Below are positions 8,115 through 44,634 of a stretch of 64,000 bases of DNA, in pieces. The translations under genes and the position numbers were made by a program. Position 1 is the first letter of the stretch. The number at the start of each line of letters is the position of its first letter. The notes under the pieces were generated by a model. That model searched no databases. It saw only the letters and a program-made list of their open reading frames with translations, and was not told the origin of the DNA. Source of the DNA: Pseudomonas grandcourensis (GTDB taxonomy: Bacteria > Pseudomonadota > Gammaproteobacteria > Pseudomonadales > Pseudomonadaceae); NCBI RefSeq assembly GCF_039909015.1, contig NZ_CP150919.1, positions 6,238,501-6,302,500 of the forward strand. The letters run 5' to 3'.

Positions 8115-8235
8115 TTATCCACAGCGTGATCCCCGCCGTTTGTGCGCAAGTATCTGAAACTGCTGGTTTTTTGATCAGAACCTGAAGAGCCCCGGTCGGC
8201 GTGGCCTGGCGGGGTGTCTCTACAGGTTATCCACA
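8115..8235. repeat. Dispersed DnaA-box/TTTTTTGATCAG repeat, copy 1
   Basis: Perfect TTATCCACA at 8115-8123 and 8227-8235 flank TTTTTTGATCAGAACCTGAA at 8167. The spacing from the T-run to the second box is 60 bp, the same as in the repeats at 44257-44634. It lies between convergent rarD and the GcvR-like gene and does not code. Confidence 0.7.
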
Positions 8236-8266
8236 GGCCGGTGCACGTTTAACTTGGATAACCTGA

Positions 8267-8785
8267 TCAGGGTTCACTGCGCAGCACCAATTCGACCATC
8301 AGGTCGTCAGCCAGGGTTTCCAGGCGCGATTGCAGTACGTCCAGCGACAGTGTCAGCGGGACCGCAAGAATCGCCTCGGCATGGAACAACGGCTCGCTGC
8401 TCATCGGTGCCGGGCGCACTTCGGTGACCAGCCGTTCCAGATTCACCCCCTGCTCGCTCAACAAGCGCGTGATGTCACGCACGATCCCCGGGCGATCATT
8501 GCCCACCAGTTCCATGGCGATCGGTTTCCAGGTGCAGGATTGTTCGATACCGCTTTCAGCGATCAACACGCGAATGCCATGGGCGGACAAGCCCTGCAAT
8601 GCATCGACCAATTCGTCGTAGGCCTCGGCCGGCACCCCCACTCGAAGAATCCCGGCGAACTGTCCCGCCATGCGCGACATGCGGCTTTCCAGCCAGTTAC
8701 CGCCGTGCTCGGCAATGCATTGGGCAATGCGCTCGACTTGTCCTGGCTTGTCCGGAGCAAAAACAGTGAGTACGAGGTGGTCCAT
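8267..8785 (-). CDS. GcvR-like double-ACT regulator
   Basis: This 172-residue cytosolic protein consists of two ACT domains, at about residues 3-80 (DHLVLTVFAPDKPGQVERIA) and 90-170 (MELVGNDRPGIVRDITRLLS). This is the layout of the glycine-cleavage repressor GcvR, which in E. coli binds glycine and GcvA. No helix-turn-helix is present, so it would act through a partner. A glycine-linked regulator fits a genome rich in betaine-to-glycine catabolism, but the direct target is not visible here. It faces rarD tail to tail. Confidence 0.85.
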   Translation of the reverse strand: MDHLVLTVFAPDKPGQVERIAQCIAEHGGNWLESRMSRMAGQFAGILRVGVPAEAYDELVDALQGLSAHGIRVLIAESGIEQSCTWKPIAMELVGNDRPGIVRDITRLLSEQGVNLERLVTEVRPAPMSSEPLFHAEAILAVPLTLSLDVLQSRLETLADDLMVELVLRSEP

Positions 8786-8868
8786 GGCGCAGCCCTCTTG
8801 TCATGACTTTTGTTATAGAGAACCAAGTATAGGCAAGGGTTGGACCTGCGCCGACAGGTCAGGCGTCT

Positions 8869-8932
8869 TCGCGAGCAGGCTCGCTCCCACAAGGGTTGCG
8901 CGGGCCTTTGTGGGAGCGAGCCTGCTCGCGAA
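8869..8932. repeat. REPIN, family A, upstream of the GcvR-like gene
   Basis: CGCGAGCAGGCTCGCTCCCA and its inverse TGGGAGCGAGCCTGCTCGCG are about 20 bp apart. It lies in the head-to-head gap between the GcvR-like gene and glcB. Confidence 0.9.
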
Positions 8933-9330
8933 TGAAGTCGCCGCCGATCGAAATGGAAAACAAATCGTGTACAACTTTTGATATTTAACTGGAACAATCC
9001 AATGGTTTTTTGAGAACATCACGCTCCCCGACGTGACCGCAATGCGTCATGGGGTCGCAGAACGACGTAATTAGTCTAATTTTCACAACCGCAATTCATC
9101 ATGTAGTATGCCGCAGCGCGCACTACATAACGTTGGATCGATGTCTGCCGCAGGCACGTTCGCAACCCTGAAAGCCCTGTCAGCAAGGCCCCAAGCCGTT
9201 GATTGGTCCCAACCCAGCCGCCTGTCATGGGCATGTACTGGTAGAGGGGTTTGTGGTTTAAATGGCCAAAGGCTTCATTGTTAAATTGAAGAGCTGAAAA
9301 GCGAAATAGCTGAGCAGAGTGAGGCAAGCA
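8933..9330. promoter_or_regulatory. glcB leader region with a 7+7 inverted repeat
   Basis: This 398-bp stretch before malate synthase has no convincing gene. It is more AT-rich than its surroundings. It contains ATGTAGT (9101-9107) and ACTACAT (9122-9128), a perfect inverted repeat with centres two helical turns apart, which could be a dimeric operator. The remainder is presumably promoter and 5' leader. No further motif was recognised. Confidence 0.4.
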
Positions 9331-11508
9331 ATGACTGAACACGTTCAAGTCGGTGGCCTGCAGGTCGCCAAAGTCCTGTTCGACTTCGTGAACAACGAAG
9401 CCATTCCCGGTACCGGCCTCACCGCCGATAAGTTCTGGGCCGGTGCCGACAAGGTCATCCATGACCTGGCGCCGAAGAACAAAGCCCTACTCGCCAAACG
9501 CGATGATTTCCAGGCTCGTATCGATGGCTGGCACCAGGTACGTGCCGGTCAGGCGCACGACGCCGTGGCCTATAAAGCCTTCCTGCAAGACATCGGTTAT
9601 CTGCTGCCAGAAGCGGCCGATTTCCAGGCAACGACGCAAAACGTCGATGAAGAAATCGCCCGCATGGCCGGTCCACAGCTCGTGGTGCCTGTCATGAACG
9701 CCCGCTTCGCGCTCAACGCCTCGAACGCCCGCTGGGGCTCGCTGTACGATGCGCTCTACGGCACCGACGCCATCAGCGAAGCCGACGGCGCGGAAAAAGG
9801 CAAAGGCTACAACAAGGTGCGCGGTGACAAAGTCATCGCTTTCGCCCGCGCCTTCCTCGACGAAGCGGCGCCTTTGGCGGCCGGCTCCCACGTCGATTCC
9901 ACTGGCTACAAGATCGTCGACGGCAAACTGGTGGTCGCCCTTAAAGGCGGCAGCAACACCGGCCTGCGCAACGACGCACAACTGATCGGCTTCCAGGGCG
10001 ATGCCGCTGCACCGACCGCGATCCTGCTGAAAAACAACGGCCTGCATTTCGAAATCCAGGTCGACGCCAGCACCCCGGTCGGCCAGACCGACGCGGCCGG
10101 CGTCAAAGACATCCTGATGGAAGCCGCGCTGACCACCATCATGGACTGCGAAGACTCCGTCGCCGCTGTCGATGCCGATGACAAAGTGGTGATCTACCGC
10201 AACTGGCTCGGCCTGATGAAGGGCGATCTGTCGGAAGAAGTCGCCAAGGGCGGTCAGACCTTTACCCGCACCATGAACGCCGACCGCACCTACACCGCTG
10301 TCGATGGCAGTGAACTGAGCCTGCACGGCCGTTCGTTGCTGTTCGTGCGTAACGTTGGTCACCTGATGACCATCGATGCAATTCTGGACAAAGACGGTAA
10401 CGAAGTGCCGGAAGGCATTCTCGATGGCCTGGTGACTTGCCTGGCATCGATGCACAACCTGAACGGCAATACCTCGCGCAAAAACACCCGCACCGGCTCG
10501 ATCTACATCGTCAAGCCGAAGATGCACGGCCCGGAAGAAGCGGCGTTCACCAACGAGCTGTTCGGTCGCATCGAAGACGTGCTGGGCCTGCCGCGCAACA
10601 CCCTCAAAGTCGGGATCATGGACGAGGAGCGTCGTACCACGATCAACCTCAAGGCCTGTATCAAGGCGGCGAGCGAGCGCGTGGTGTTCATCAACACCGG
10701 TTTCCTCGACCGTACGGGCGACGAAATCCACACCTCCATGGAAGCCGGCCCGATGGTGCGCAAGGCGGACATGAAGGCGGAAAAATGGATCGGTGCCTAC
10801 GAGAACTCCAACGTCGATATCGGTCTGAGCACCGGCCTGCAAGGTCGCGCACAGATCGGCAAAGGCATGTGGGCCATGCCTGACCTGATGGCTGCGATGC
10901 TCGAACAGAAAATCGCTCACCCGATGGCCGGTGCCAACACCGCCTGGGTACCATCACCGACCGCTGCTGCGCTGCACGTGCTGCATTACCACAAGGTTGA
11001 CGTGTTTGCCCGTCAGGCTGAACTGGCCAAACGTGCCCATGCTTCGGTAGACGACATCCTGACCATCCCGCTGGCGGTGAACCCGCAGTGGACCGCCGAA
11101 CAGATCAAGAACGAACTGGACAACAACTCCCAGGGCATTCTCGGTTATGTGGTGCGCTGGATCGACCAGGGCGTCGGCTGTTCGAAAGTGCCGGACATCA
11201 ACGACGTCGGCCTGATGGAAGACCGTGCCACGCTGCGTATTTCCAGCCAGCACATCGCCAACTGGCTGCGTCACGGCATCGTCAGCGAAGAGCAAGTGAT
11301 GGAAAGCCTCAAGCGCATGGCGCCGGTGGTTGACCGGCAGAACGCCGGCGACGCGCTGTACCGTCCGCTGGCCCCCAACTTCGACAGCAACATCGCCTTC
11401 CAGGCGGCGGTCGAACTGGTGGTTGAAGGCACGAAGCAGCCGAACGGCTACACCGAGCCGGTTCTGCACCGTCGTCGTCGCGAGTTCAAGGCTGCCAATG
11501 GCCTGTAA
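9331..11508 (+). CDS. glcB: Malate synthase G
   Basis: GlcB condenses glyoxylate with acetyl-CoA to malate, completing the glyoxylate shunt and glycolate/acetate use. The 725-residue protein matches the long G isoform. It begins [20 protein letters not shown] and contains [72 protein letters not shown] and [17 protein letters not shown]. An alternative GTG 12 nt upstream exists. The ATG at 9331 is preferred because the GTGAGG it would occupy serves as the ribosome site. The gene is monocistronic and ends at a strong terminator. Confidence 0.98.
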
Positions 11509-11530
11509 CTGAGCGCCTGCGCCGGACATG

Positions 11531-11565
11531 AAAAAGCCCTGATCGAAAGATCAGGGCTTTTTCTT
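11531..11565. terminator. Strong bidirectional intrinsic terminator
   Basis: AAAAAGCCCTGATC, loop GAAA, then GATCAGGGCTTTTT: a perfect stem flanked by A- and T-runs. It can serve glcB and, from the other strand, the convergent response-regulator gene. Confidence 0.95.
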
Positions 11566-11588
11566 TGTGGGCTGCTCGCTCCCACAAA
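11564..11588. repeat. Degenerate single REP remnant
   Basis: TTTGTGGG and CCCACAAA enclose CTGCTCGCT, a shortened family-A REP palindrome lying against the terminator. Only one arm pair is left. Confidence 0.55.
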
Positions 11589-11614
11589 GGCAGTTCAGGG
11601 CTGACAGGCTTGGA

Positions 11615-12076
11615 CTAAGGCTTCATCCCAAGCTCACGCTTGACCAACTCCAGCAGATTGCCGGCATCAATCGGCTTGAGCAGAAAATCCACCACGCTCA
11701 TATGCATCGCGGCAATCGCATCCTTCACGTCGGCGTCACCCGAGACAATGATGATCGGCAATGCCGCCCTGACCGATTCGCGTACCTGACGAATCAGTTC
11801 CAGACCGTCAATGTGGCTCATTCGCAAGTCGGTAATCAGTAAACCGATCGTGGGCTTTTTGATCTCCGCCTCGGTCACCAGCATCTTGAGCGCCGCTTCG
11901 CCACTGGCCGCGGTCAGGCAGCGGATACCGTCCAACGCGAGGATCTCTGACAGCAGGTCCCGGGCGTCTTTATCGTCATCGACGATCAGCACCCGTTGCG
12001 GCGGCAGGTCAGGTTCCAGCATGACGGCACTCAGCGCTTCGCGCTCGGCGTCGCTCAAAATATCGTGGTCGGACAT
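11615..12076 (-). CDS. Single-domain response regulator
   Basis: This 153-residue protein is a phosphoacceptor receiver domain without an output domain, preceded by a short N-terminal extension of about 26 residues. The acidic pocket is Asp33-Asp34, the phosphoacceptor is Asp83 (ITDLRM), and Ser112 (VSGDAD) and Lys134 (LLKP) complete the active site. The start at 12076 follows AGGGAATGCC. A longer frame to 12112 lacks a better site. Its cognate histidine kinase is not in the window. It is divergent from the cNMP/CBS/DUF294 gene with 259 bp between, which may reflect a shared function. Whether it relays or competes for phosphate is unknown. Confidence 0.9.
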   Translation of the reverse strand: MSDHDILSDAEREALSAVMLEPDLPPQRVLIVDDDKDARDLLSEILALDGIRCLTAASGEAALKMLVTEAEIKKPTIGLLITDLRMSHIDGLELIRQVRESVRAALPIIIVSGDADVKDAIAAMHMSVVDFLLKPIDAGNLLELVKRELGMKP

Positions 12077-12335
12077 GGCATTCCCTATATGTTCAATACA
12101 ATTCCCTGGCACAACAGTGAGACAGCGCTATGCAGACCATCAATGTGCACCTCGTCGGAGAATAGTCCAATAGGGCAGCAGAGAGGTTTTTCGCACATTT
12201 GCGTAGGACTTTTCCGACAATTCAGCGCGCCAACCGCCTACCTAGACTTACGTCCAATGGGCACCCCGGCCACAGGGGTCGACCATGTATGGGTCATCCG
12301 ACTACAACAATTCAAAAAAGACTGCGGTAATGGTT

Positions 12336-14270
12336 ATGAGTAAAGCGGACGCCTTCACACAGGCAGGGAAAACCGCGGTGTTGCAGAACATCCAGGGCAC
12401 GTTGCAATTCCTTCAGCGCTTCCCGCCCTTCAACCAGATGGAACACGCTCACCTGGCGTACCTGGTCGAGCAATGTCAGCTGCGTTTTTACGCCCCCGGC
12501 GAAAGCATCATCAAACCCGCCGACGGGCCAGTCGAGCACTTCTATATCGTCAAGCAAGGCCGGGTCGTGGGCGAGCGTCCGCACACGGCAAAAGGTGGCA
12601 CCGAAACGGTCTTCGAGATCACCACCGGCGAGTGTTTCCCCCTCGCGGCGTTGTTGGGTGAGCGGGCGACCCGCACCGAACATCTGGCTGGCGAGGACAC
12701 CTTCTGCCTGCAACTGAACAAGCCGGCGTTCATCCGCCTGTTTTCGCTATCGGACACCTTCCGCAACTTCGCCCTGCGCTGTGTCAGCAGCCTGCTGGAT
12801 CAGGTCAACCAGCAAGTGCAGCAAAAAGCCGTGGAAACCCTGGGCACCCAATATTCGCTCAATACCCGACTGGGTGAGTTGGCCATGCGCCACCCGGTAA
12901 CGTGCAGCCCGCAGACGCCATTGCGCGAAGCCGTGACGTTGATGCATGAACAGCAAGTCGGCAGCATCGTGGTGGTCGATGAACTCAAGGCGCCAATGGG
13001 GATTTTCACCCTACGCGACCTGCGCCAAACCGTAGCCAACGGCAGCAGTGACTTCAACGAAGCCATGGAAGGGCACATGACCCGGGCGCCGTTTTTCCTG
13101 TCGCCGGATCACAGTGCATTCGACGCGGCGATTGCCATGACCGAGCGTCACATCGCCCATGTCTGCCTGGTCAAGGACCAGCGCTTGTGCGGCGTGGTTT
13201 CCGAGCGTGACCTGTTTTCCCTGCAACGGGTCGACCTGGTGCACCTGGCGCGCACTATCCGCAATGCCCAGAAAGTGGAAAACCTGGTGGCGTTGCGGGG
13301 CGAAATCGGTCAACTGGTCGAGCGCATGCTGGCCCACGGCGCATCTTCGACGCAGATCACCCACATCATCACCTTGCTCAACGACCACACCGTGTGCAGG
13401 GTGATCGAACTGACCCTCGCCGAAAAAGGCGACCCCGGCGTGCCGTTCAGTTGGCTGTGTTTCGGCAGCGAAGGCCGTCGCGAGCAGACCCTGTACACCG
13501 ATCAGGACAACGGCATTCTGTTCGAAGCCAGGGATGCGGCCCATGCCGCCGAGATTCGCGGCAAGCTGCTGCCCATTGCCCAACAGATCAACCAGAGCCT
13601 GGCGCTGTGCGGCTTCACCTTGTGCAAGGGCAATATCATGGCCGGCAACCCCGAACTGTGCCTGTCCCGGGCCGAATGGGCGCGGCGCTTTGCGGCGTTT
13701 ATCCGCGAGGCAACCCCGGAGAACCTGCTGGGTTCGAGCATCTATTTCGATTTGCGCGTGGTCTGGGGCAGCGAGCAAGGCTGTGAGCAGTTGCGCCGGG
13801 GCATTCTCGATCAGGTCGGCGACAACCGTTTGTTCCAGCGCATGATGGCGGAGAATGCGCTGCGCAATCGCCCGCCCGTAGGACGTTTCCGCGAGTTCGT
13901 GCTGGCGCGCAAAAATGGCGAGAAGGCCACCCTGGACCTGAAGATCCAGGGCCTGGCACCCTTTGTCGATGGCGCCCGGTTGCTGGCCCTGGCCCATGGC
14001 ATCGAGACCAACAACACGCTGGAGCGTTTTCGCCAGCTGGTTGCCAAAGAGGTCATCGAACCCCTGGACGGCGCCGCGTACGAAGAGGCCTATCACTTCA
14101 TCCAGCAAGCCCGCATGCAGCAACATCAACTACAGACCCGGGAGAATTTTCCTTACTCGAATCGGGTCGATCCCGACAGCCTCAATCATCTGGACCGACG
14201 CATCCTGCGTGAGTCCCTGCGCCAGGCACAACGCCTGCAAAGCAGCCTGGCCTTGCGGTATCAGTTATGA
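12336..14270 (+). CDS. cNMP-binding/CBS/DUF294 nucleotidyltransferase signalling protein
   Basis: The 644-residue cytosolic protein has a cyclic-nucleotide-binding fold (residues ~25-150: FYAPGESIIKPADG, FYIVKQGRV). Two CBS domains follow (~185-240, MRHPVTCSPQTPLREAVTLM; ~250-310). A DUF294 nucleotidyltransferase core comes next, with GSEGRREQ at 377-384 and the metal pair Asp389/Asp391 in TDQDNG, and then a C-terminal DUF294 helical region. This is the known DUF294 architecture; its reaction is unproven in most organisms. The ATG at 12336 gives MSKADAFTQAG. In-frame starts upstream at 12285 or 12330 cannot be excluded. Its stop overlaps the exonuclease start (ATGA at 14267), so the two are translationally coupled. 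Confidence 0.85.
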   Translation: MSKADAFTQAGKTAVLQNIQGTLQFLQRFPPFNQMEHAHLAYLVEQCQLRFYAPGESIIKPADGPVEHFYIVKQGRVVGERPHTAKGGTETVFEITTGECFPLAALLGERATRTEHLAGEDTFCLQLNKPAFIRLFSLSDTFRNFALRCVSSLLDQVNQQVQQKAVETLGTQYSLNTRLGELAMRHPVTCSPQTPLREAVTLMHEQQVGSIVVVDELKAPMGIFTLRDLRQTVANGSSDFNEAMEGHMTRAPFFLSPDHSAFDAAIAMTERHIAHVCLVKDQRLCGVVSERDLFSLQRVDLVHLARTIRNAQKVENLVALRGEIGQLVERMLAHGASSTQITHIITLLNDHTVCRVIELTLAEKGDPGVPFSWLCFGSEGRREQTLYTDQDNGILFEARDAAHAAEIRGKLLPIAQQINQSLALCGFTLCKGNIMAGNPELCLSRAEWARRFAAFIREATPENLLGSSIYFDLRVVWGSEQGCEQLRRGILDQVGDNRLFQRMMAENALRNRPPVGRFREFVLARKNGEKATLDLKIQGLAPFVDGARLLALAHGIETNNTLERFRQLVAKEVIEPLDGAAYEEAYHFIQQARMQQHQLQTRENFPYSNRVDPDSLNHLDRRILRESLRQAQRLQSSLALRYQL

Positions 14271-14974
14271 GCCTGTTTTCGTGGCTGCGCCCGCCGAGCC
14301 CCAACCTGTCAGCCCACCTGCAACATCGGCTGGAGCAATTACCGACGGCTGCAGACCTGGCGCAGTGCAGCCTGCGCGAACAGCGCTGGGTGGTGCTCGA
14401 CCTGGAAACCACCGGCTTGAACATGAACAAGGACCATGTGTTGTCCATCGGCGCGGTGGTGATCGAGGACGGGGCCATCGACTTTCGCCAACAGTTCGAA
14501 CGCACCCTGCAATATCCGCAAGTGAAACTCGGCCCCAGCGTGCTGATCCATGGCATTGGCCCCAGCGCCATTGCAGCGGGCAGCGACCCGGCTGAAGCAC
14601 TGCTCGACCTGATGGAGTACATCGGGGACAGTCCGGTGCTGGCCTTCCACGCGCCGTTTGACCAGCACATGCTCGGCCGTGCGCTGAAAGATCACCTGGG
14701 TTTCAAGCTGCAGCATCCGTTTCTGGACGTGGCGGACATTGCACCGCTGCTGTGCCCCCAAGCGCACATTCGCGAGGCCGGGCTGGACGATTGGATCGAC
14801 TGGTTCAAGCTCGAAGTCTTCGAGCGCCACCACGCCAGTGCCGATGCCCTGGCCACCGCCGAACTGATGCTGATCCTGTTCAGCCGTGCGCGGCAGCAAC
14901 AGATTCATAGCCCGTTGAATCTGCAACAGCGCTTGAATCAGTGGAAGCGCCGGCAGCAGGCGCCGTCCTTCTGA
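14267..14974 (+). CDS. DnaQ-like DEDDh 3'-5' exonuclease
   Basis: This 235-residue protein has the DEDDh exonuclease fold: LDLETTGLN (Asp45, Glu47) for motif I, AFHAPFDQHML for motif II, and HHASADALATAEL with the catalytic His-Asp for motif III. It resembles the proofreading epsilon subunit but is encoded with the DUF294 protein rather than with replication genes. A repair, RNA-trimming or second-messenger-degrading role is possible. The start codon overlaps the upstream stop. A REPIN follows 15 bp after its own stop. Confidence 0.88.
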   Translation: MSLFSWLRPPSPNLSAHLQHRLEQLPTAADLAQCSLREQRWVVLDLETTGLNMNKDHVLSIGAVVIEDGAIDFRQQFERTLQYPQVKLGPSVLIHGIGPSAIAAGSDPAEALLDLMEYIGDSPVLAFHAPFDQHMLGRALKDHLGFKLQHPFLDVADIAPLLCPQAHIREAGLDDWIDWFKLEVFERHHASADALATAELMLILFSRARQQQIHSPLNLQQRLNQWKRRQQAPSF

Positions 14975-14988
14975 CCTATACGCAATCC

Positions 14989-15092
14989 CTGTAGGAGCGA
15001 GCCTGCTCGCGAAAAACGTCAACGGTGACACGTTTTTCCGGTAAGACCGAGGTGTCAGATAATTTTTCGCGAGCTTGCTCGCTCCTACAGGG
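14989..15092. repeat. REPIN, family A variant (TGTAGGAGCG)
   Basis: CTGTAGGAGCGAGCCTGCTC and inverted GAGCTTGCTCGCTCCTACAG flank a spacer that is itself partly symmetric (GCGAAAAACG, ATTTTTCGC). It follows the exonuclease gene. Confidence 0.9.
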
Positions 15093-15158
15093 GCCGTCGC
15101 CAAACTCCCACCCGACCAACGCCAATTGCTTACCTCCCTCGCCTCTGCCACAATCGCG

Positions 15159-15171
15159 AACAATTCTCGTT
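15159..15171. promoter_or_regulatory. Candidate Fur box upstream of ECF sigma gene
   Basis: The reverse strand reads AACGAGAATTGTT, close to the Fur core AATGAGAATNATT, 30 bp before the sigma factor start. Iron repression is expected for this type of operon, but the match is imperfect. Confidence 0.4.
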
Positions 15172-15200
15172 AGTTAATACTTCCCAATCGGTGATGCGGC

Positions 15201-16690: not shown

Positions 16691-16707
16691 ACCGCCACAC
16701 AGCCCCC

Positions 16708-20785: not shown

Positions 20786-20789
20786 TCCC

Positions 20790-35925: not shown

Positions 35926-35929
35926 GGGG

Positions 35930-36646: not shown

Positions 36647-36778
36647 AATTGGCCTTCGACTGTGTATGTTCCTGACAGCGACATCCTGTGCGCTCCACCT
36701 GACGATCTTGGGTACAGTGCGCACCCTCATTGACCACGGGACGCTTCACCATAGGCATCTCGACCACGGAAGCAGGCC

Positions 36779-37816
36779 ATGACCGACAAGAGCCAACAAT
36801 TCGCCAGCGACAACTATTCCGGCATCTGCCCTGAAGCCTGGGCTGCCATGGAACAGGCCAACCACGGCCACCAGCGCGCCTACGGCGACGACGAGTGGAC
36901 CGCCCGCGCCTCCGACGATTTTCGCAAACTGTTCGCGACCGACTGCGAAGTGTTTTTCGCCTTCAACGGCACCGCTGCCAACTCGCTGGCGTTGTCGTCG
37001 TTGTGCCAGAGTTACCACAGCGTGATCTGCTCGGAAACCGCCCACGTCGAAACCGACGAATGCGGCGCCCCGGAATTCTTCTCCAACGGTTCCAAACTGC
37101 TGATCGCCCGCACTGAAAACGGCAAGCTGACCCCGGAATCGATCCGCGAGGTCGCGCTCAAGCGCCAGGACATCCACTACCCGAAACCCCGCGTCGTGAC
37201 CCTGACCCAGGCCACCGAAGTCGGCAGCGTCTACACCCCGGACGAAATCCGCGCCATCAGCGCCACCTGCAAGGAACTGGGCCTGAACCTGCACATGGAC
37301 GGCGCACGGTTCTCCAACGCCTGTGCATTCCTCGGCTGCACCCCGGCTGACCTGACCTGGAAGGCCGGCGTCGACGTGTTGTGCTTCGGCGGCACGAAAA
37401 ACGGCATGGCGGTGGGTGAGGCGATTCTGTTCTTCAACCACAAACTGGCAGAAGACTTCGATTACCGCTGCAAGCAGGCCGGGCAGCTGGCGTCGAAAAT
37501 GCGCTTCCTGTCAGCACCGTGGGTCGGGATCCTGGAAAACGACGCCTGGCTCAAATACGCCAACCACGCCAACCACTGCGCGCAATTGCTGGCCGAACTG
37601 GTCAGCGACATTCCCGGCGTGGAACTGATGTTCCCGGTACAGGCCAACGGCGTGTTCCTGCAACTGTCGGAACCGGCCATCGCCGCACTGACCGCCAAGG
37701 GCTGGCGCTTCTACACCTTCATCGGCAACGGCGGCGCACGCTTCATGTGCTCGTGGGACACCGAGGAAGAGCGGGTGCGCGAATTGGCGCGGGATATCCG
37801 TGAAGTGATGGCATAA
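36779..37816 (+). CDS. ltaE: Low-specificity L-threonine aldolase
   Basis: This PLP enzyme splits L-threonine or allo-threonine to glycine and acetaldehyde and joins threonine to the glycine pool fed by betaine. The 345-residue protein shows NGTAANSLAL, SETAHVETDECGAPEF, LHMDGARFSNACAFLG and the PLP-lysine motif CFGGTKNGMA (Lys207). It is followed by a family-B REPIN. It lies in the betaine/glycine neighbourhood, as in P. aeruginosa. Confidence 0.95.
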   Translation: MTDKSQQFASDNYSGICPEAWAAMEQANHGHQRAYGDDEWTARASDDFRKLFATDCEVFFAFNGTAANSLALSSLCQSYHSVICSETAHVETDECGAPEFFSNGSKLLIARTENGKLTPESIREVALKRQDIHYPKPRVVTLTQATEVGSVYTPDEIRAISATCKELGLNLHMDGARFSNACAFLGCTPADLTWKAGVDVLCFGGTKNGMAVGEAILFFNHKLAEDFDYRCKQAGQLASKMRFLSAPWVGILENDAWLKYANHANHCAQLLAELVSDIPGVELMFPVQANGVFLQLSEPAIAALTAKGWRFYTFIGNGGARFMCSWDTEEERVRELARDIREVMA

Positions 37817-37825
37817 CCGCGATCC

Positions 37826-37962
37826 CCTGTGGCGAGGGGGCTTGCCCCCGTTGGACTGCGCAGCAGGCCCAAAGTCTGAGTCGGTGGTTTGTCAGTCAGA
37901 CCGCGACAGCAGGTTTTACGACGGCTGCGCCGCCGAACGGGGGCAAGCCCCCTCGCCACAGG
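37826..37962. repeat. REPIN, family B, after ltaE
   Basis: CCTGTGGCGAGGGGGCTTGC and inverted GCAAGCCCCCTCGCCACAGG; the spacer carries GGACTGCGCAGCAGG and ACGGCTGCGCCGCC side stems. Confidence 0.9.
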
Positions 37963-38058
37963 TTCGCGCTCGTCCGTTCCCCCGCCACTGCTCCTGAAGA
38001 CTTCGTCTACATTGTTTGTCGAGCCTGTGCTCACATAAAAACAATCAGGAGCGTCAGC

Positions 38059-38883
38059 ATGTCATTGCAAGGCAAAACCCTGTTCATCACCGGTGCCAGC
38101 CGCGGCATCGGCCGCGAGATCGCGCTGCGGGCCGCTCGCGATGGGGCCAACATCGTGATTGCCGCCAAAAGCGCCGAACCCCATGCCAAGCTGCCGGGCA
38201 CGATTTTCAGCGTGGCCGAGGAAGTGGAAGCCGCAGGCGGCAAGGCGCTGGCCTTGCAGGTGGATGTGCGTGAAGAGGATGCCGTACGTGCGGCCCTGGC
38301 CCAGGCCAACGAACATTTCGGTGGCATCGATGCACTGATCAACAACGCCGGGGCGATCAAGCTGACCGGGGTCCAGCACCTCGAACTCAAGCGCTTCGAC
38401 CTGATGCACCAGATCAACACCCGCGCCGTCTTGCTGTGCAGTCAGGCTGCGTTGCCGTACCTGAAGAAGTCCGGCGGCCACATCCTCAACCTGTCCCCGC
38501 CGCTGAACCTGGCCACCAAATGGTTCGCCCAGTACAGCCCCTACACCGTCACCAAATACGGCATGAGCATGCTGACTTTGGGCATGAGCGAGGAATTCAA
38601 GAATTACGGGATCAGCGTCAACTCGCTATGGCCACAGACGATGATTGCCACCGCTGCCATCGAGTTTCAGCTGGGATCGAGGGAATCGTTCAAGCATGCG
38701 CGCCTGCCTGCGATCATGGCGGATGCGGCGCATGTGATTCTGAGCAGCACAAATCGCAGCCTGACCGGGCGTTTGCTGATCGATGAGGAAATACTGCGGG
38801 AGAACGGTGTGACGGAGTTCGAACACTATCGGTTCGCGCCGGACAGCAGCGACAAACTCATGACTGACCTGTTCGTTGACTGA
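38059..38883 (+). CDS. Short-chain dehydrogenase, HSDL2-like
   Basis: This 274-residue NAD(P)-dependent oxidoreductase has the Rossmann glycine motif TGASRGIGREIALR, NNAGAI, and the catalytic LSPPLNLATKWFAQYSPYTV followed by TKYGMS (Tyr-x3-Lys). The Ser-to-Tyr spacing is three residues longer than in classical SDRs, as in the HSDL2 subgroup. It lacks the SCP2 lipid-binding domain of animal HSDL2. Substrate is unknown; a fatty-acyl or steroid-like alcohol is possible. The ribosome site is CAGGAGCGTCAGC. It lies between ltaE and gbcB, and REPINs isolate it from both. Confidence 0.87.
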   Translation: MSLQGKTLFITGASRGIGREIALRAARDGANIVIAAKSAEPHAKLPGTIFSVAEEVEAAGGKALALQVDVREEDAVRAALAQANEHFGGIDALINNAGAIKLTGVQHLELKRFDLMHQINTRAVLLCSQAALPYLKKSGGHILNLSPPLNLATKWFAQYSPYTVTKYGMSMLTLGMSEEFKNYGISVNSLWPQTMIATAAIEFQLGSRESFKHARLPAIMADAAHVILSSTNRSLTGRLLIDEEILRENGVTEFEHYRFAPDSSDKLMTDLFVD

Positions 38884-38895
38884 AAAAACACTGCA

Positions 38896-38990
38896 CCTGT
38901 GGGAGCGAGCTTGCTCGCGATGACGGAATCAGATTCAACATCAATGTTGGCTGATCCAACGCTATCGCGAGCAAGCTCGCTCCCACAGGG
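38896..38990. repeat. REPIN, family A, between SDR and gbcB
   Basis: CTGTGGGAGCGAGCTTGCTC and inverted GAGCAAGCTCGCTCCCACAG in the gap between two convergent genes. Confidence 0.9.
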
Positions 38991-39004
38991 AGTGATGGCG
39001 CTTA

Positions 39005-40105
39005 TTAAAACTCGATCCGCACATCCCCCTTCGGCACGCTGCAGCACGACAGAATGTACCCTTCGGCTTCGTCTTCCTCGGTGATCCCGCCGTTGTGCTC
39101 CATCTCCACTTCGCCGCCCAGCTTCAGCACCTTGCAGGTCCCGCAAATCCCCATGCCGCACGCTTTCGGAATCATCAGGCCGACCTTGGCCGCTGCTGCA
39201 TGCACGGTCTCGCCCGGGGCCACGCGGATGCTCTTGCCGGAGGCGGTGAATTCCACTTGATGCAAGTCCGCGGCGTCGACTTCAGGTGCCTCGGCCGCTT
39301 GTTCGGCGTGTTCCACGGCGTCAGCGCGCGCCTCTGGCGGGGTCGCACCGAAGGATTCTTCGTGATAACGCGACATGTCGAAGCCAGCGGCTTCCAGCAA
39401 GCGCTTGACCGCATTCATATACGGTGTCGGACCGCAGCAGAATACTTCGCGCTCAAGGAAGTCAGGCGCCATCAATTCAAGCATTCTGTGGTTGAGGTAA
39501 CCGCGATAGCCGGCCCAGGGCTCACCCATACCGTGCTTCTCGCAGATCAGGTGCAGGCTGAAGTTGTCGATCCGCGACGCCATGTGTTCCAGCTCGCGGT
39601 GGTAAATGATGTCTTTAGGCGAACGGGCGCTGTGGATAAACACCATGTCGACATTGCCGTTGGTGTCGTAGAACCAGCGCGCCATGGACATGACCGGCGT
39701 GATACCAACGCCGCCGCTGAGGTAGAGCACCTTCGGCGCGGTGAAGTCCATGGCATTGAACAGCCCGACCGGCCCGTGCACCGCCAGCTCCTGGCCTTCG
39801 TGCAGGGTGTCGTGCAGCCAGTTGGACACCTTGCCGCCCGGCACGCGCTTGATGGTCACCGAAAAGCTGTACGGCACCGATGGCGAGCTGGAAATGGTGT
39901 ACGAACGCATGATCGGCTGGCCTTCAATCTCCAGCTCCAGGGTGACAAACTGCCCCGGCTTGAAGAAGAACAGGATCGGCTGGTCGGCCATGAAGCAAAA
40001 GGTGCGCACATCCCAGGTTTCCTGGATGACTTTGACGCAACGGACGATGTGTCGACCATTGGCCCAGGTCTGGGTGGTTACCGGGTTCAGGAAGCTGTTG
40101 GACAT
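39005..40105 (-). CDS. gbcB: Glycine betaine monooxygenase, reductase subunit
   Basis: GbcB passes electrons from NAD(P)H through FAD and a 2Fe-2S cluster to the Rieske oxygenase GbcA, which demethylates glycine betaine to dimethylglycine. The 366-residue protein has an FAD domain (FVTLELEIEGQPIMRSYTIS). An NAD-binding domain follows (KVLYLSGGVGITPVMSMARW, EREVFCCGPTPYMNAVKRLL), then a C-terminal plant-type ferredoxin domain (CGMGICGTCKVLKLGGEVEM, SCCSVPKGDVRIEF). The start at 40105 follows GTGGAGATCAGC; the longer frame to 40171 is not preferred. It is divergent from gbcA. Confidence 0.96.
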   Translation of the reverse strand: MSNSFLNPVTTQTWANGRHIVRCVKVIQETWDVRTFCFMADQPILFFFKPGQFVTLELEIEGQPIMRSYTISSSPSVPYSFSVTIKRVPGGKVSNWLHDTLHEGQELAVHGPVGLFNAMDFTAPKVLYLSGGVGITPVMSMARWFYDTNGNVDMVFIHSARSPKDIIYHRELEHMASRIDNFSLHLICEKHGMGEPWAGYRGYLNHRMLELMAPDFLEREVFCCGPTPYMNAVKRLLEAAGFDMSRYHEESFGATPPEARADAVEHAEQAAEAPEVDAADLHQVEFTASGKSIRVAPGETVHAAAAKVGLMIPKACGMGICGTCKVLKLGGEVEMEHNGGITEEDEAEGYILSCCSVPKGDVRIEF

Positions 40106-40401
40106 GCTGATCTCCACGGCCGACTGTCGGCCTTCATGTTGGCGATTCTGCGTATAGCGCGAACCATCCATTTACCTATCTGCGACATTGACATGCTTAT
40201 CGCGACCAGCCCCCAACGACCGGGGCTTGCGCGTCGGGAACAGATTGCACCATGTCGCCCATGGATAAGGTTCTGGCCAGCGCCGGCCCCACACTCGCCC
40301 CATACCAAGACACATTCTTTACACCTTGCGTAGCAACCCTGAGCAGCACACCTGATTAGCCACTTTCGCCGGCCACACAGAATGGCCTTGAGGATTAAAC
40401 G
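40106..40401. promoter_or_regulatory. Divergent gbcB-gbcA control region
   Basis: This 296-bp gap must hold both promoters and, by family knowledge, GbdR-binding sites. I could not assign the GbdR half-sites with certainty. No coding feature or REP is present. Confidence 0.5.
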
Positions 40402-41697
40402 ATGGACGTCACTACTACCCTGAGCCTGGGCGATCCGCTGGAACCCGCACGCAAGGCCACCGCACAGATGCTGCAAGAGCGCGAGCGCACGTTCTCGCTG
40501 CCGCAGCCGTTTTACTCCGACGAGCGCCTGTTTGATATCGACATGCAGGAAATCTTTCAGAAAGAGTGGTTGATCGCCGGCATGACCTGCGAAATCCCTA
40601 CCAAGGGCAACTACCTGACCCTGCAGATCGGCAAGAACCCGATCATCGTGATCCGTGGCGCCGAAGGCGTGGTGCATGCGTTCCATAACGTCTGCCGCCA
40701 CCGTGGCTCGCGCCTGTGCACCAGCGAAAAAGGCAAGGTTGCCAAGCTGGTTTGCCACTACCACCAGTGGACCTACGAACTGGACGGCCGCCTGCTGTTC
40801 GCCGGCACCGAAATGGGCGCCGACTTCGACATGAAAGACTACGGCCTCAAGCCGGTGAACGTGAAGACCGCCGGCGGCTACATTTTCATCAGCCTTGCGG
40901 AGAACCCGCCGGCCATCGATGACTTCCTGTCGACGCTCAACCACTACATGGAACCGTACGACATGGAGAACACCAAGGTGGCGATCACCACCACCTTGAT
41001 GGAAAAGGCCAACTGGAAACTGGTGCTGGAAAACAACCGCGAGTGCTACCACTGCAACGCGTCGCACCCGGAATTGTTGAAAACCCTGCTTGAGTGGGAC
41101 GACGTCACCGACCCGCGCGCCGACCAGGCCTTCAAGGACCACGTCGCCGCCTCTGCCGCTGCCTGGGAAGCCGAAAAGATCCCTTACGCCCACGCCAGCT
41201 TCGGCCTGCGCAACCGCATCGTGCGCATGCCGCTGCTAAAGGGCACCGTGTCGATGACCATGGACGGCAAACAGGGCTGCGCCAAGCTGATGGGCCGCAT
41301 CCAGAACCCGGACCTGGGCTCGATGCGCATCCTGCACCTGCCGCACTCCTGGAACCACTGCATGGGCGACCACATCATCGTGTTCACCGTGTGGCCGATC
41401 AGCGCCCAGGAAACCATGGTCACCACCAAGTGGATCGTGCACAAGGACGCGGTCGAAGGCGTGGACTACGACGTGGAGCGCATGCGCCAGGTCTGGGACG
41501 CCACCAACGACCAGGACCGTCGCCTGGCCGAAGAGAACCAGCGCGGCATCAACTCCACCGCGTACCAGCCTGGACCGTACTCCAAGACCTATGAGTTCGG
41601 CGTGGTGAACTTTGTGGACTGGTACAGCGAGCGTCTGCTGAGCAACCTGGGGGCTGAGCCTGCGCCGTATTTGAAGGGTGTGCCGGTTAGCGGTTGA
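40402..41697 (+). CDS. gbcA: Glycine betaine monooxygenase, Rieske oxygenase subunit
   Basis: GbcA removes one methyl group from glycine betaine, giving dimethylglycine and formaldehyde. The 431-residue protein has a Rieske 2Fe-2S site (Cys98-x-His100 in VCRHRGSRLC, Cys118-x2-His121 in VCHYHQW). The mononuclear iron site lies in NRECYHCNASHPELL (His217, His222). Length and motifs match the Pseudomonas enzyme. The ribosome site is TTGAGGATTAAACG before 40402. A terminator follows its stop. Confidence 0.97.
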   Translation: MDVTTTLSLGDPLEPARKATAQMLQERERTFSLPQPFYSDERLFDIDMQEIFQKEWLIAGMTCEIPTKGNYLTLQIGKNPIIVIRGAEGVVHAFHNVCRHRGSRLCTSEKGKVAKLVCHYHQWTYELDGRLLFAGTEMGADFDMKDYGLKPVNVKTAGGYIFISLAENPPAIDDFLSTLNHYMEPYDMENTKVAITTTLMEKANWKLVLENNRECYHCNASHPELLKTLLEWDDVTDPRADQAFKDHVAASAAAWEAEKIPYAHASFGLRNRIVRMPLLKGTVSMTMDGKQGCAKLMGRIQNPDLGSMRILHLPHSWNHCMGDHIIVFTVWPISAQETMVTTKWIVHKDAVEGVDYDVERMRQVWDATNDQDRRLAEENQRGINSTAYQPGPYSKTYEFGVVNFVDWYSERLLSNLGAEPAPYLKGVPVSG

Positions 41698-41718
41698 GGA
41701 TTGAAGGATTGAACCAGT

Positions 41719-41758
41719 AGAGGCCTATGAACTACGCAGTAAACAGGCCTCTGTTTTT
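41719..41758 (+). terminator. Intrinsic terminator after gbcA
   Basis: AGAGGCCT (41719-41726) pairs with AGGCCTCT (41745-41752) and is followed by GTTTTTC, 21 bp after the gbcA stop. It abuts the stop of the convergent PLC-X gene. Confidence 0.8.
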
Positions 41759-44022
41759 CATGGCTGGGGGTGAACTGGTAATCTAGCCCAATCCGATTCG
41801 GTGCCATTTGCAAACCTGCACCTGACACCGACCGCGATTGGAATCAGGGGTATCAGGTTTTCAAGAGTAAAAGTCCTTGTAGGGCCCAGATACGCTTCAA
41901 ACTCAACGACGAACACCTTGAATACATATCCGATTACATTGCCGGCCCCCTCGTCGGGAAGATCCCAGGCAAAAGAAACGCTGCGATTAGCATTGGCGGT
42001 GACGCGGAAATTGGTAGGCACTGCTGTACTGTCATCTAATGTTCTAAATACAAGCGATGCAGGTTCGGACGACAGACCGGAATGACCGATTGCGAATACA
42101 CGCACGGTATAAGGCGTATCACGCGACAACCCTGCTAGTCGAATAGTTGTTTCAACCGTATCCTGGCCAATCAGTCCGTTCAAATCGTATCTATAGCGAG
42201 CAACACCGGGACCTGAACTGAGCCAGAAAATATTCGCGGACTGTACTAAGGGTTCTGCACTCAATCCCTTGGGCGCTTCCGGCCTGGCCTCCCCATTCAC
42301 CACGGTGAAAGAGGCGTCTGCCGAGTACCGGGAATTCAGTCCACCCATTGTCTGATCACAGGTCAAGACAAACCCCCCTTCCGGCAATTCGACATCTGGC
42401 GGTGCCGACCAATTGCCGTTGGCATCAACCGACGCCGTGCCGTACAAAATAGTCCCCAAACCGCTTTCATAGAAACGGACTGTCGCCCCAGGCACTCCAT
42501 TCCTGCCCCTGATCACGGGTTTGGTCGTCGTCACCACGGAACCGTTAGCGGGTTCAAGAATGATCGGGATTGGAAGATTGACAGTAAACGTAGTGACTTC
42601 TGAGTAGCCGGACGTCAAGTCGTTGAAGTCCTGAGCACACACCAAGGCAAAACTTCCGTACGGCAAATCGACATTTGGCGCTGCCGACCAATTGCCATTG
42701 TCATCAACCCGCGCCGTGCCGTACAAAATAGTCCCCAAACCGCTTTCATAGAAGCGGACCGTCGCCAAAGGCACACCACTTCCCCTGAACGACGGCCTCA
42801 CGCTATTCACGTCAGAACCATGGACCGGCGTACTGATGGTCGGAGGATCAATGCTTGTAATTACTTGAATGGTTACTGGCTCTGTCCATCTGGATACTTG
42901 GCCGTGACGGCTCTGCCGGCACGTCAACTTAATAGTGCCACCAGGAAGTTGCGCATCCATTCTCCACGAACCATTTGAATCGGCGACCGTTGTACCCAAA
43001 TCCGTCCCAATGTCACTTTGAGACAGCGTCACTATTGCGTTAGGCATTGCATATCCATTTACCTGAACGGCGTTGGTATAGGAGGTGTATCCCGGCGGAG
43101 GAAAGTGCATACGTAATCGAGTGCCTATGACAACCCGCTTTGGATTGCTTGAAATACAATGCCGAATAAACGCCGAGTTCTCACGCGCAACAAAATCAAA
43201 ACTGACGATGCTGCTTTTACGCTGCCAATCACCCCCCGCTGGGTACCAGCCAACAAGCCGTGGAATAATGGCCCCGGGGCCACCGGCCCCGAAAACCGTT
43301 GCTGACATTGACCATGGATAATCATTAAATGGCGGATTTACCATTACGCCCTGTATATGAGCATACAGCCGGTCCGGATCAACAGCACCACTTCCCGCCC
43401 AAGAGTGATCAAGCTTGTCCCAAAAAAAAGTTGGATCTCGATCTGCCGATACTTCTCGAGGTACAGCGACAATCAAACGGGGTCCAGGATACTGACTCTT
43501 GATCTCTTCAAGCGTCAAGCCTTCCGCGGACCGTGGCAGCATTTTACGGGTGTAATGCCGCATGAAATGCGCGTGAATAGCGGCATAAGGTACAGGATAA
43601 CTGTTGTTATGAAGTTCGAATCGGTGAAAATCAAGAATGACAATCTCCCCCGGGTTGGTCTCTTGAAAACGATCAACATCGTTCAGCATATTGGCGAATG
43701 TTCTACCTGACGTCTGGTCACTATGGGTGAATCGCAGCCCTTGATTAACATTATCCGAGCCATACCCATGAAACCATCTAAGCCTGATATCCAAAACACG
43801 TATGCCGTTGTCGAGCTGATAGCGAAAACTCTTATCCTGGCATGTTATATAACTGTTGCTATAGTCCGCCTCATTATCCATTCCAGCATTATGCGCACTT
43901 GCAAGAAGAAGCTCACTCACCCGTAAATGCTGGATGTAGGGGTGAAGATCTACCATCCAGCTGTTCAGGTTGTAAGCGTAAGATTCAACATTCGGCTCTG
44001 ACAGTTCATTTTGATCGTTCAT
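41758..44022 (-). CDS. PI-PLC-X domain protein with Ig-like and fibronectin III repeats
   Basis: The 754-residue protein begins with a phosphatidylinositol-phospholipase-C X domain (about residues 25-310): SAHNAGMDN (His44), VLDIRLRWFHG (Asp79, Arg80), FTHSDQT (His100) and ILDFHRF. Three Ig-like domains follow (about 318-388, 393-482, 486-575), and then two fibronectin III domains (about 582-663, 667-752). Ig domains 2 and 3 share TVRFYESGLGTILYGTA exactly. There is no signal peptide. The start at 44022 has AGGAG six bases upstream. The gene is more AT-rich than its neighbours, suggesting transfer. It may act on phosphoinositides or on sugar/lipid phosphates and be exported by a non-Sec route. 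Activity is inferred from fold motifs only. Confidence 0.82.
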   Translation of the reverse strand: MNDQNELSEPNVESYAYNLNSWMVDLHPYIQHLRVSELLLASAHNAGMDNEADYSNSYITCQDKSFRYQLDNGIRVLDIRLRWFHGYGSDNVNQGLRFTHSDQTSGRTFANMLNDVDRFQETNPGEIVILDFHRFELHNNSYPVPYAAIHAHFMRHYTRKMLPRSAEGLTLEEIKSQYPGPRLIVAVPREVSADRDPTFFWDKLDHSWAGSGAVDPDRLYAHIQGVMVNPPFNDYPWSMSATVFGAGGPGAIIPRLVGWYPAGGDWQRKSSIVSFDFVARENSAFIRHCISSNPKRVVIGTRLRMHFPPPGYTSYTNAVQVNGYAMPNAIVTLSQSDIGTDLGTTVADSNGSWRMDAQLPGGTIKLTCRQSRHGQVSRWTEPVTIQVITSIDPPTISTPVHGSDVNSVRPSFRGSGVPLATVRFYESGLGTILYGTARVDDNGNWSAAPNVDLPYGSFALVCAQDFNDLTSGYSEVTTFTVNLPIPIILEPANGSVVTTTKPVIRGRNGVPGATVRFYESGLGTILYGTASVDANGNWSAPPDVELPEGGFVLTCDQTMGGLNSRYSADASFTVVNGEARPEAPKGLSAEPLVQSANIFWLSSGPGVARYRYDLNGLIGQDTVETTIRLAGLSRDTPYTVRVFAIGHSGLSSEPASLVFRTLDDSTAVPTNFRVTANANRSVSFAWDLPDEGAGNVIGYVFKVFVVEFEAYLGPTRTFTLENLIPLIPIAVGVRCRFANGTESDWARLPVHPQP
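42418..42757. repeat. Intragenic direct repeat in the PLC-X gene
   Basis: Nearly identical DNA, including GCCGTGCCGTACAAAATAGT, recurs about 269 bp apart (near 42434 and 42713) and encodes the shared core of Ig domains 2 and 3. High DNA identity implies recent duplication or gene conversion. Confidence 0.8.
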
Positions 44023-44256
44023 TCCGAACTCCTGCATTAACTTGAAATCAAAAATTACTGTACATTTGAACTTTAAACACCTAACAGAAAAGATAGTTTT
44101 TATACTTTTTTCATCTGAACTGGTTACTGCTAATTCCTTCCTTTATGGCACTGGTTCACCACCCTTCCCCGTGATGTAGCAGTTTCAGCTGTACGAAATA
44201 TGATCTATCTCGTTCAGGCCTATGCCCGCCGCACCTCCCAGCCTTCCGCAAACAAG

Positions 44257-44634
44257 TTATCCACATCTCCACCCACAGCTATTGGGGACAACTGTGGAAA
44301 TGCTGCAAAAATTCTCCACAAAAACCAAAGAAAAACCGTGACTTATCCAGAAGCATGCTTCCATGGACGGACTGGTCATTTTTTGATCAGAAACCTAAAA
44401 GGCACGGACTGCGTAGCTTTCAGAGGACGACAAACACCTTATCCACAGAAGCGCCAACAGAGATTGGGGGCAAGTCTGCATCCCCAGCAGCACTTATCCC
44501 CTTGAAAAAGCTTGGAAAAACCACCAACAAGGCTGATTGCTTTTTGACCAGCAGCCTGCAGGGCTTGATTTGTATGGGGTGTAGCGAGGGGCGAACATGT
44601 TATCCACAGAACCACCAACAGGGATTGTGGATAA
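44257..44634. repeat. Degenerate tandem repeat with four perfect DnaA boxes
   Basis: TTATCCACA occurs at 44257, 44439 and 44600 and inverted at 44626-44634. TTTTTTGATCAG (44379) and TTTTTGACCAG (44541) lie 60 and 59 bp before the next box. CCAACAGRGATTG follows the second and third boxes. Unit length is about 160-180 bp. The rest of the 625-bp gap 44023-44647 holds no gene; its left third is an AT-rich leader of the PLC-X gene. Confidence 0.75.

Follow-up and report, generated by a model that had tools for sequence, protein, structure and literature searches.

Near-origin repeats of Pseudomonas grandcourensis as probable DARS-type elements with a Fis site and an inner dyad

The window analyzed here is a stretch of 64,000 nucleotides of Pseudomonas grandcourensis (contig NZ_CP150919.1, positions 6,238,501 to 6,302,500), and it contains five copies of one element. 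The start of copy A1 is overlapped by 4 bp by the end of a rarD-type gene. Since A2 is abutted by the 3' end of an ACT-domain gene, the two copies together take up the space that separates these two convergent genes; the ACT-domain gene also gives a weak match, under cut-off, to the glycine cleavage repressor model. Cluster B is situated beyond the start of a gene for an Ig-like repeat protein. The features are as follows, with scores from the profile R1.

7164..8051, + strand: rarD-type EamA transporter gene (TIGR00688 over cut-off)
8048..8151, + strand: element A1, probably DARS-type; 45.8 bits, E 2e-13 in 64 kb (A1 is itself among the 104 copies that built R1)
A1 modules: Fis consensus 8050-8064 in the A-tract form GATCAAAAAACGCAC; dyad 8072-8098
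A1 boxes: III 8115-8123 TTATCCACA; II 8127-8135 TGATCCCCG; I 8141-8149 (reverse) TTGCGCACA
8159..8263, + strand: element A2, first copy in the first-pass annotation; 65.1 bits
A2 modules: Fis-like sequence 8162-8176 GCTGGTTTTTTGATC, short of the full consensus; dyad 8184-8210
A2 boxes: III 8227-8235 TTATCCACA; II 8239-8247 CGGTGCACG; I 8253-8261 (reverse) TTATCCAAG
8267..8785, - strand: ACT-domain gene (PF13740 and PF01842 over cut-off)
41758..44037, - strand: Ig-like repeat protein gene (Big_13, Big_6 and fn3 over cut-off)
44189..44293, + strand: element B1; 41.9 bits
B1 modules: Fis consensus 1 bp off, 44191-44205; dyad region 44214-44240, poor
B1 boxes: III 44257-44265 TTATCCACA; II 44269-44277 CCACCCACA; I 44283-44291 (reverse) TTGTCCCCA
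44371..44476, + strand: element B2, second copy in the first-pass annotation; 82.7 bits (B2 is likewise among the 104 copies)
B2 modules: Fis consensus 44374-44388 GGTCATTTTTTGATC; dyad 44396-44422
B2 boxes: III 44439-44447 TTATCCACA; II 44451-44459 GCGCCAACA; I 44465-44473 (reverse) TTGCCCCCA
44533..44636, + strand: element B3, third copy in the first-pass annotation; 76.7 bits
B3 modules: Fis consensus 44535-44549 GATTGCTTTTTGACC; dyad 44557-44583
B3 boxes: III 44600-44608 TTATCCACA; II 44612-44620 CCACCAACA; I 44626-44634 (reverse) TTATCCACA

The first-pass annotation had recognized A2, B2 and B3 as pairs of a T-run with GAYCAG and a DnaA box. Rechecking of sequence and coordinates bore out all three: TTTTTTGATCAG at 8167 with TTATCCACA at 8227, TTTTTTGATCAG at 44379 with TTATCCACA at 44439, and TTTTTGACCAG at 44541 with TTATCCACA at 44600. 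The spacing it had called fixed is exactly 48 bp from GAYCAG to TTATCCACA in 3/3 pairs, its values of 59 and 60 bp differing because of T5 versus T6 runs. These are the only exact pairs in the genome of 6,763,687 bp (gaps of 40-65 bp allowed), all of them in the window, and the reversed pattern gives 0. When a free gap of 34-64 bp was permitted after TTTTTGATCA in 398 genomes of the genus, a match was present in 211, with none for the control among the matches listed. More than 150 matches exist, and the 150 listed, which are not independent because the genomes are related, have the identical gap in 144 cases, the deviants being two at +1, one at +3 and three at +11. The last three are A-tract forms of the element, so the T-run is dispensable. 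This had been missed, as had the full length of the element (about -5 to 98) and the window copies at 8048-8151 and 44189-44293. What stood of the earlier interpretation is a conserved element with DnaA-box sites at fixed spacing, and its titrating role may still apply; the proposal of an RNA-coding unit found no support, and the statement that no named family fits was not upheld.

The repeat pair forms one end of this ~105-bp element, in which the order of modules is Fis consensus, 27-bp dyad and three DnaA-box positions. In element coordinates, the putative Fis site occupies -5..9, the dyad is centered on position 30, and the boxes lie at 60-68 (box III, +), 72-80 (box II, +) and 86-94 (box I, -), giving the core geometry III(+)-3 bp-II(+)-5 bp-I(-). 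Box positions and orientation are all in register in the five window copies, which match the DnaA-box consensus at 9/9 positions in box III, 6-9/9 in box I and 4-6/9 in box II. Among the near-origin copies, box III is 9/9 in nine of ten, part of this strength being ascertainment because the copies were gathered by box III, and box II is degenerate with 4-7/9 matches to TTATCCACA.

The T-run of the pair is half of a Fis-binding consensus, the 15-bp form GNNYRNNWNNYRNNC. In the window the consensus is exact in A1, B2 and B3, 1 bp off in B1 and unmet in A2; elsewhere in the same genome all five copies of loci C, D and E carry it in exact register. The same holds for 129/130 B-type copies, the left half of the consensus lying outside the pattern used to gather them, and for 28/56 A-type copies. 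At class level it is in register in 35/39 matches, which were chosen with R1, whose columns include the Fis site, versus 0/39 in each of two flanking controls. A conserved in-register IHF consensus was not found, the best being 15/130 and 15/56 with one mismatch allowed. IHF was also considered as the reader of the TGATCA motif and set aside for the poor fit of WATCAANNNNTTR.

A profile search returned ten copies in the genome, including the five of the window, at -518, -481, -792, +669 and +798 kb from dnaA. As to the suggested count and position relative to the origin, the copies thus occupy both arms within ~0.8 Mb of oriC. Distances between tandem copies change by roughly one turn of the helix at a time (period ~10.8 bp). 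A canonical-looking copy at +1.92 Mb has boxes II and I at 9/9 and box III at 6/9, with the dyad in register and the Fis consensus 1 bp off, and in four far-arm variants the Fis consensus is exactly 12 bp closer to the core (4/4). The three-box core is retained in single copies distant from the origin. The word TTATCCACA occurs 133 times in the genome versus 22 for its reverse, and clusters around the origin among the 100 matches listed. Element matches are found in 296/298 genomes of the family and 182/369 of the class.

DARS, or DnaA-reactivating sequences, are sites at which DnaA is recharged in E. coli. Two boxes in the element are obvious and 17 bp apart; class-wide matches place a third between them with DARS spacing, and the comparison was taken up for this reason. 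The core of E. coli DARS1 reads TAATACACA TGG TTATCCACA GGAAT AGTGGATAA, and passages of PMC5742627 describe the same box spacing in DARS1 and DARS2, with box I oriented opposite to II and III. Both R1 and R2, the latter a profile built solely on 41 matches from genomes of other families, match DARS1 in equal register; R2 does so with 29 bits (E 1.4e-7, 169 kb searched), and scores up to 44.2 bits on the window copies. When 23,826 positions in 12 kb of E. coli DNA are scored with a dyad-only profile trained on Pseudomonas, the in-register site of DARS1 comes out on top, at shift 0. DARS1 is enhanced by a flank of ~50 bp (PMC5742627, in part), and by the dyad-profile rank the element shares the ~50-bp flank on the box III side, the side being our assignment. 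Far from lacking a named family, then, the element arranges its three boxes as the DARS core of E. coli does, and the profiles tie it to DARS1. Therefore, core geometry together with the R2 and dyad-profile matches points to DARS-type elements.

Over 186 copies of the element, the inner inverted repeat does not covary in general, Watson-Crick pairing being close to the column-composition expectation; the exceptions are two A-type pairs (observed 0.52 versus expected 0.33, and 0.59 versus 0.45). For this reason it is treated as a putative protein site. A dyad-like motif may also lie upstream of dnaA, with best scores of 10.3-17.1 in six of eight stretches scanned at length and no score of at least 7 in the other two; four further stretches were short or one-sided. 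Near oriC of the P. grandcourensis genome the best score is 10.2, but the background in the window reaches 15.3 and 18.6 (126,284 positions).

Taken together, the near-origin repeats are probably DARS-type elements of ~105 bp, with a Fis site, a dyad and a three-place DnaA core, that would recharge DnaA. From sequence, we infer that they act by ADP-to-ATP exchange on DnaA or by titration. In the exchange mechanism, the perfect box III would recruit DnaA, mostly ADP-bound, and boxes II and I would set two DnaA molecules head to head. Bending by Fis and a dyad-bound protein would then fold the DNA so that DnaA drops ADP and reloads ATP. Fis would tie recharging to fast growth, and the amount of DnaA that the ten origin-proximal copies recharge, and also hold, would scale with the origin-proximal DNA just replicated. 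More tentatively, DARS of the Gammaproteobacteria may share an overlooked third module, a dyad whose protein reader would likewise act at E. coli DARS1, next to a Fis site at fixed distance; Pseudomonadaceae may in turn carry about ten origin-proximal DARS, partly in helically phased arrays, through which Fis would make the recharging of DnaA on either arm follow the growth rate.

With box II degenerate and box III perfect, however, little or no exchange activity may remain. The near-origin copies might then be DARS-derived sinks with a decayed box II, which titrate DnaA or promote ATP hydrolysis in the manner of datA and, doubling soon after initiation, block early re-initiation. We consider this unlikely, if deserving of some weight. 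The state of boxes II and III in the ten copies agrees with it, as do the excess and origin crowding of TTATCCACA among the matches listed and the datA-like distances from the origin, E. coli datA lying ~0.47 Mb from oriC. Moreover, titration by origin-proximal boxes has been argued for E. coli (PMC12371093, in part). Yet the IHF site of datA is unseen in register and its box order is absent, and pure titration would need neither the rigid spacing of Fis site, dyad and core nor the 3' half of box II, which is kept. Improbable is a role as architectural or segregation sites, in which Fis and DnaA build a nucleoprotein array in the origin domain and replication control is secondary; helical steps between tandem copies and location in the origin domain on both arms would fit, but single copies remote from the origin keep the three-box core too. 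A small structured RNA or mRNA leader, for which an intergenic position and a central inverted repeat could speak, is very improbable given 186 copies without general covariation, no Rfam match in the window at gathering scores and unchanged length in 144/150 free-gap matches listed.

No account of such Pseudomonas elements appears in the portions consulted of PMC12371093, PMC4245941, PMC10380432, PMC4585315, PMC8682772, PMC5742627, PMC6072106, PMC10218098 and PMC4285127. An earlier mention of Pseudomonas is possible, as a review (PMC10380432, in part) points to the founding DARS paper for sequences of this kind in numerous proteobacteria. If the DARS-type reading is correct, studies of DnaA recharging between replication rounds outside E. 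coli gain a consensus, a set of coordinates and component parts that can be put to the test, in Pseudomonas and across the class. The conserved dyad offers an explanation of the ~50-bp stimulatory flank at E. coli DARS1, and predicts a new DnaA-cycle protein.

Among known systems, datA resembles the element as a DnaA-box cluster a few hundred kb from oriC, here at -518 and -481 kb from dnaA; part of the text of PMC10380432 likewise places datA near oriC. Boxes 2, 3 and 7 of datA flank one IHF site, whereas the element has a different box order and no conserved IHF match, and R2 matches datA only partially (12.8 bits, over a box). The DARS loci of E. coli are not known to be origin-proximal. 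In DARS2 the Fis/IHF region lies on the box III side, as does the Fis consensus in the element. DARS2 shares the DARS core, and Fis is required there (PMC4245941, in part). It needs IHF sites between core and Fis, unlike the element, which is without an in-register IHF consensus; it lacks the dyad (score -28.4), and its only full Fis consensus, by the rule applied here, begins 163 bp before box III. As a match E. coli DARS2 was rejected, R2 giving its core 9.9 bits, below 16.3 bits elsewhere in the same intergenic region, and no match to the element was found beyond the boxes. DARS1 differs in having no Fis consensus in the 120 bp before box III and in its perfect box II and 7/9 box III, opposite to the pattern in the Pseudomonas copies near the origin; it is presumably single-copy and not origin-proximal. 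In contrast to these differences, DARS1 and the element have three DnaA boxes in identical order, orientation and spacing (III-3-II-5-I), a dyad upstream at exactly equal distance, and a total length of ~100 bp, DARS1 having 101 bp (PMC5742627, in part).

The repeat is of a kind that is already known, DARS, and its modules, geometry, conservation, profile similarity and placement can be observed directly. The first-pass annotation placed three pairs of a T-run and a DnaA box correctly, and the fixed spacing that it claimed is seen in all three, with 48 bp from GAYCAG to the DnaA box. When the whole genome was searched with this pattern (gaps 40-65 bp, 6,763,687 bp in one contig), only these 3 exact matches were returned, against 0 for the reversed pattern; the window spans 6,238,501-6,302,500 of that contig. 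Allowing gaps of 34-64 bp in 57 genomes including our own, 6 carried a match (control 0), and the 5 matches outside our genome had an identical gap with very different intervening sequence. For wider comparisons, the genus, family and class were taken as Pseudomonas, Pseudomonadaceae and Gammaproteobacteria. Matches occurred in 272/298 genus genomes when the gap was fixed and at most 2 mismatches were tolerated, and in 211 of 398 when it was free at 34-64 bp; both controls gave 0 among the matches listed. Variable spacing elsewhere would have spoken against a conserved unit, but 144 of the 150 free-gap matches listed keep the same gap, while 2 are off by +1, 1 by +3 and 3 by +11; those off by +11 are A-tract forms of the element. 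The spacing is considered rigid because of these free-gap searches; fixed-gap patterns served to gather the copies for alignment, whose gapless form is therefore no proof of rigidity in itself.

The copies were inventoried with R1, a sequence-only covariance model whose 104 training copies include A1, B2, C1, C2 and D2. At E < 1e-9 it yields ten full copies genome-wide, besides one partial copy at a weaker E-value:

Cluster A (A1, A2): 6246548 and 6246659, plus strand, -518 kb from dnaA
Cluster B (B1, B2, B3): 6282689, 6282871 and 6283033, plus strand, -481 kb from dnaA
Locus C (C1, C2): 668986 and 669361, minus strand, +669 kb from dnaA
Locus D (D1, D2): 798213 and 798414, plus strand, +798 kb from dnaA
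Locus E: 5971824, minus strand, -792 kb from dnaA
Partial copy: 1920737, plus strand, R1 E 0.004, +1.92 Mb from dnaA
dnaA of the same genome: 511

Scanning the window alone with filters off gives five copies at 82.7 to 41.9 bits, the next match scoring 10.2. The rarD-type and ACT-domain genes converge, and the two cluster A elements fill the space between them; cluster B is located past the start of a gene for an Ig-repeat protein. Near cluster B, on the minus strand at window 46050-52287, are electron-transfer flavoprotein genes with genes for a DUF3483 iron-sulphur protein and an FMN/FAD oxidoreductase.

The block structure of the element was obtained from a logo of 59 copies (32 + 27), 186 distinct copies (130 B-type and 56 A-type) and an alignment of 104 non-redundant copies. 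Numbering starts, as position 1, at the T that opens TTTTTGAYCAG, and the opening T of TTATCCACA is position 60; position p corresponds to window p + 8055 (A1), 8167 (A2), 44197 (B1), 44379 (B2) or 44540 (B3). Positions -5 to 9 read G, Y-R, an A/T centre, Y-R and C, which we take to be the 15-bp Fis consensus GNNYRNNWNNYRNNC. It is exact and in register in 129/130 B-type copies, whose collecting pattern did not contain the G at -5, Y at -2 or R at -1, and in only 28/56 A-type copies, because these mostly have G at -2. Its centre is an A-tract in A1, C1, C2, D1 and E and mixed in D2. Copies that have no T-run, picked up through the dyad or through the model, show the Fis consensus at the same place; judged by sequence, the T-run noticed at first therefore makes up half of a Fis-type site.

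Positions 17-43 form a degenerate dyad, CTGNANGCCNYG-N5-CRNGGCNTNCAG, centred at 30. Its pairing is near the expectation from column composition, with exceptions at 2/17 pairs in the A-type set; an RNA hairpin was therefore dropped, and the dyad is read as a putative protein site. Then follow box III, TTATCCACA, at 60-68; box II at 72-80, a weak box that usually retains its 3' end (GCGCCAACA, GGGTGCACA, AGTTCCACA and similar); and box I at 86-94, an inverted box (TTGCCCACA, TTATCCACA and similar). Naming follows PMC5742627, where box I is oriented opposite to II and III.

The element is widespread. R1 finds it in 296/298 family genomes and 19/19 genera at E <= 0.01, where 13 candidates were scored per genome, making copy counts lower bounds, and in 182/369 class genomes and 146/272 genera at E <= 0.001, all of these E-values being rough. 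One exact form occurs in at least 120 stretches of named records; the 80 listed are mostly Pseudomonas, with two SAR86 MAGs, Marinospirillum alkaliphilum, and one Fredinandcohnia and one Uhrbacteria record, the last two of which may reflect chance or contamination. Among 16 further genomes, dnaA was located in 16/16 and R1 matches were present in 15 (E <= 1e-5). Together with our genome, entered with its ten strong copies only, these give 58 clusters at a median distance from dnaA of 0.22 of the half-chromosome, most lengths being rounded to 0.1 Mb; 53/58 fall in the origin half (binomial p 1.7e-11, ignoring kinship of the genomes). The word TTATCCACA occurs 133 times in our genome versus 22 for the reversed word, and the 100 occurrences listed are concentrated within ~1.3 Mb of oriC. 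By eye, 30/40 listed occurrences at 0.53-1.32 and 5.31-5.97 Mb, bounds set post hoc, have leading-strand orientation.

Neighbouring copies also tend to lie at phased distances. There were 226 neighbour spacings below 400 bp, and most of the 166 of 126-205 bp, mainly from cluster B, coincide with 128, 138, 150, 161, 172, 182, 193 or 203 or miss one of these values by 1 bp, giving a period of ~10.8 bp with resultant 0.90 for the 166. Taking each of the 26 distinct values once, the resultant is 0.65, reached by 0/5000 random sets, a control that ignores kinship and clumping of neighbouring values. This phasing test omitted 13 other spacings and 47 of 112-113 bp, mainly from cluster A, whose phase is off by roughly half a turn.

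The +1.92 Mb copy has the core CTGTTCACA AGG TTATCCACA ATTTG TGTGGATAA, with the dyad in register (profile score 20.5) and the Fis consensus 1 bp off. On these features, our genome seems to hold a single DARS of canonical appearance besides its ten near-origin relatives, in which box III is strong and box II weak; part of the strength of box III comes from that box having been used to collect the copies. In three other genomes, four far-arm matches (L359-L362) retain the box-3 bp-box-5 bp-box core, and in 4/4 the Fis consensus lies at -53 from box III, not -65, and thus 12 bp nearer. At 1881784, 39 kb from the canonical-looking copy at 1920737, lies another gene with a DnaA domain, Hda-sized with a frame of 269 aa. 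In several genomes, the rpmH-dnaA region carries a dyad-like motif close to DnaA boxes (L041 6361, upstream of dnaA in our genome; L352, L356, L357, L347, L348), at scores of 10-17 that are not clearly above background. A second oriC-like stretch, AT-rich and rich in DnaA boxes, lies ~5 kb from dnaA (L041 1700-2150, chromosome ~6758700-6759150).

As a DARS, the element would bind DnaA at its boxes; TTATCCACA is listed as the high-affinity DnaA box of P. putida (PMC4285127). Fis may bind the candidate Fis site, and Fis sites of P. putida have been footprinted (PMC6072106). DnaA molecules head-to-head on boxes I and II would then release ADP, as described for E. coli (PMC8682772). The main doubt about this comes from box II, which is weak in the near-origin copies and makes DnaA titration by these copies the leading rival.

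Turning from titration back to DARS, a review mentions similar sequences in many proteobacteria (PMC10380432), and conserved IHF/Fis sites at DARS2 are reported for species near E. coli (PMC4245941). In the literature searched, partial texts with the founding DARS paper outside them, we found no description of a multicopy near-origin DARS-type set in Pseudomonadaceae, of a dyad common to the element and E. coli DARS1 or of turn-wise spacing of copies, nor, in the same literature on DnaA control, of a fixed Fis-dyad-core layout across the class.

Many class-level matches have a full DnaA box at 72-80, e.g. TTATCCACA-AAG-TTATCCACA-GNTTT-TGTGGATAA, and this three-box layout is that of the E. coli cores, TAATACACA TGG TTATCCACA GGAAT AGTGGATAA in DARS1 and TCTTACACC ATG TTATCCACA GAAAG CTGGGATAA in DARS2. 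The Fis consensus is in exact register in 35/39 class-level matches and in 0/39 in each of two flanking windows, the matches having been selected with a model containing Fis columns (39 of 41 used, two starting later). In E. coli, none lies within 120 bp before box III of DARS1, and the sole one at DARS2 is at -163. R1 scores DARS1 at 15 bits, in register. R2 was built solely from the 41 matches outside the family, one or more of which may come from a close relative of E. coli. It scores DARS1 at 29 bits (E 1.4e-7 in 169 kb) and the window copies at a maximum of 44.2 bits; the core of DARS2 reaches no more than 9.9, and datA, matched in part, 12.8. Within the DARS2 intergenic region, R2 scores 1636-1700 of the stretch (L062) at 16.3 bits, above the DARS2 core.

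A box-free comparison slid the Pseudomonas dyad profile (positions 15-45) over both strands of 12 kb of E. coli DNA surrounding DARS1, DARS2 and datA. In-register DARS1 is the sole top score of 23,826 positions, at 15.6 with a best register shift of 0, a value to be read with caution given background scores of 15.3 and 18.6 among 126,284 window positions; DARS2 scores -28.4. The DARS1 dyad, GCAAGC-N13-GCTTGC, is likewise centred on position 30, and it falls within reach of the ~50-bp flank that a review describes as stimulatory (PMC5742627).
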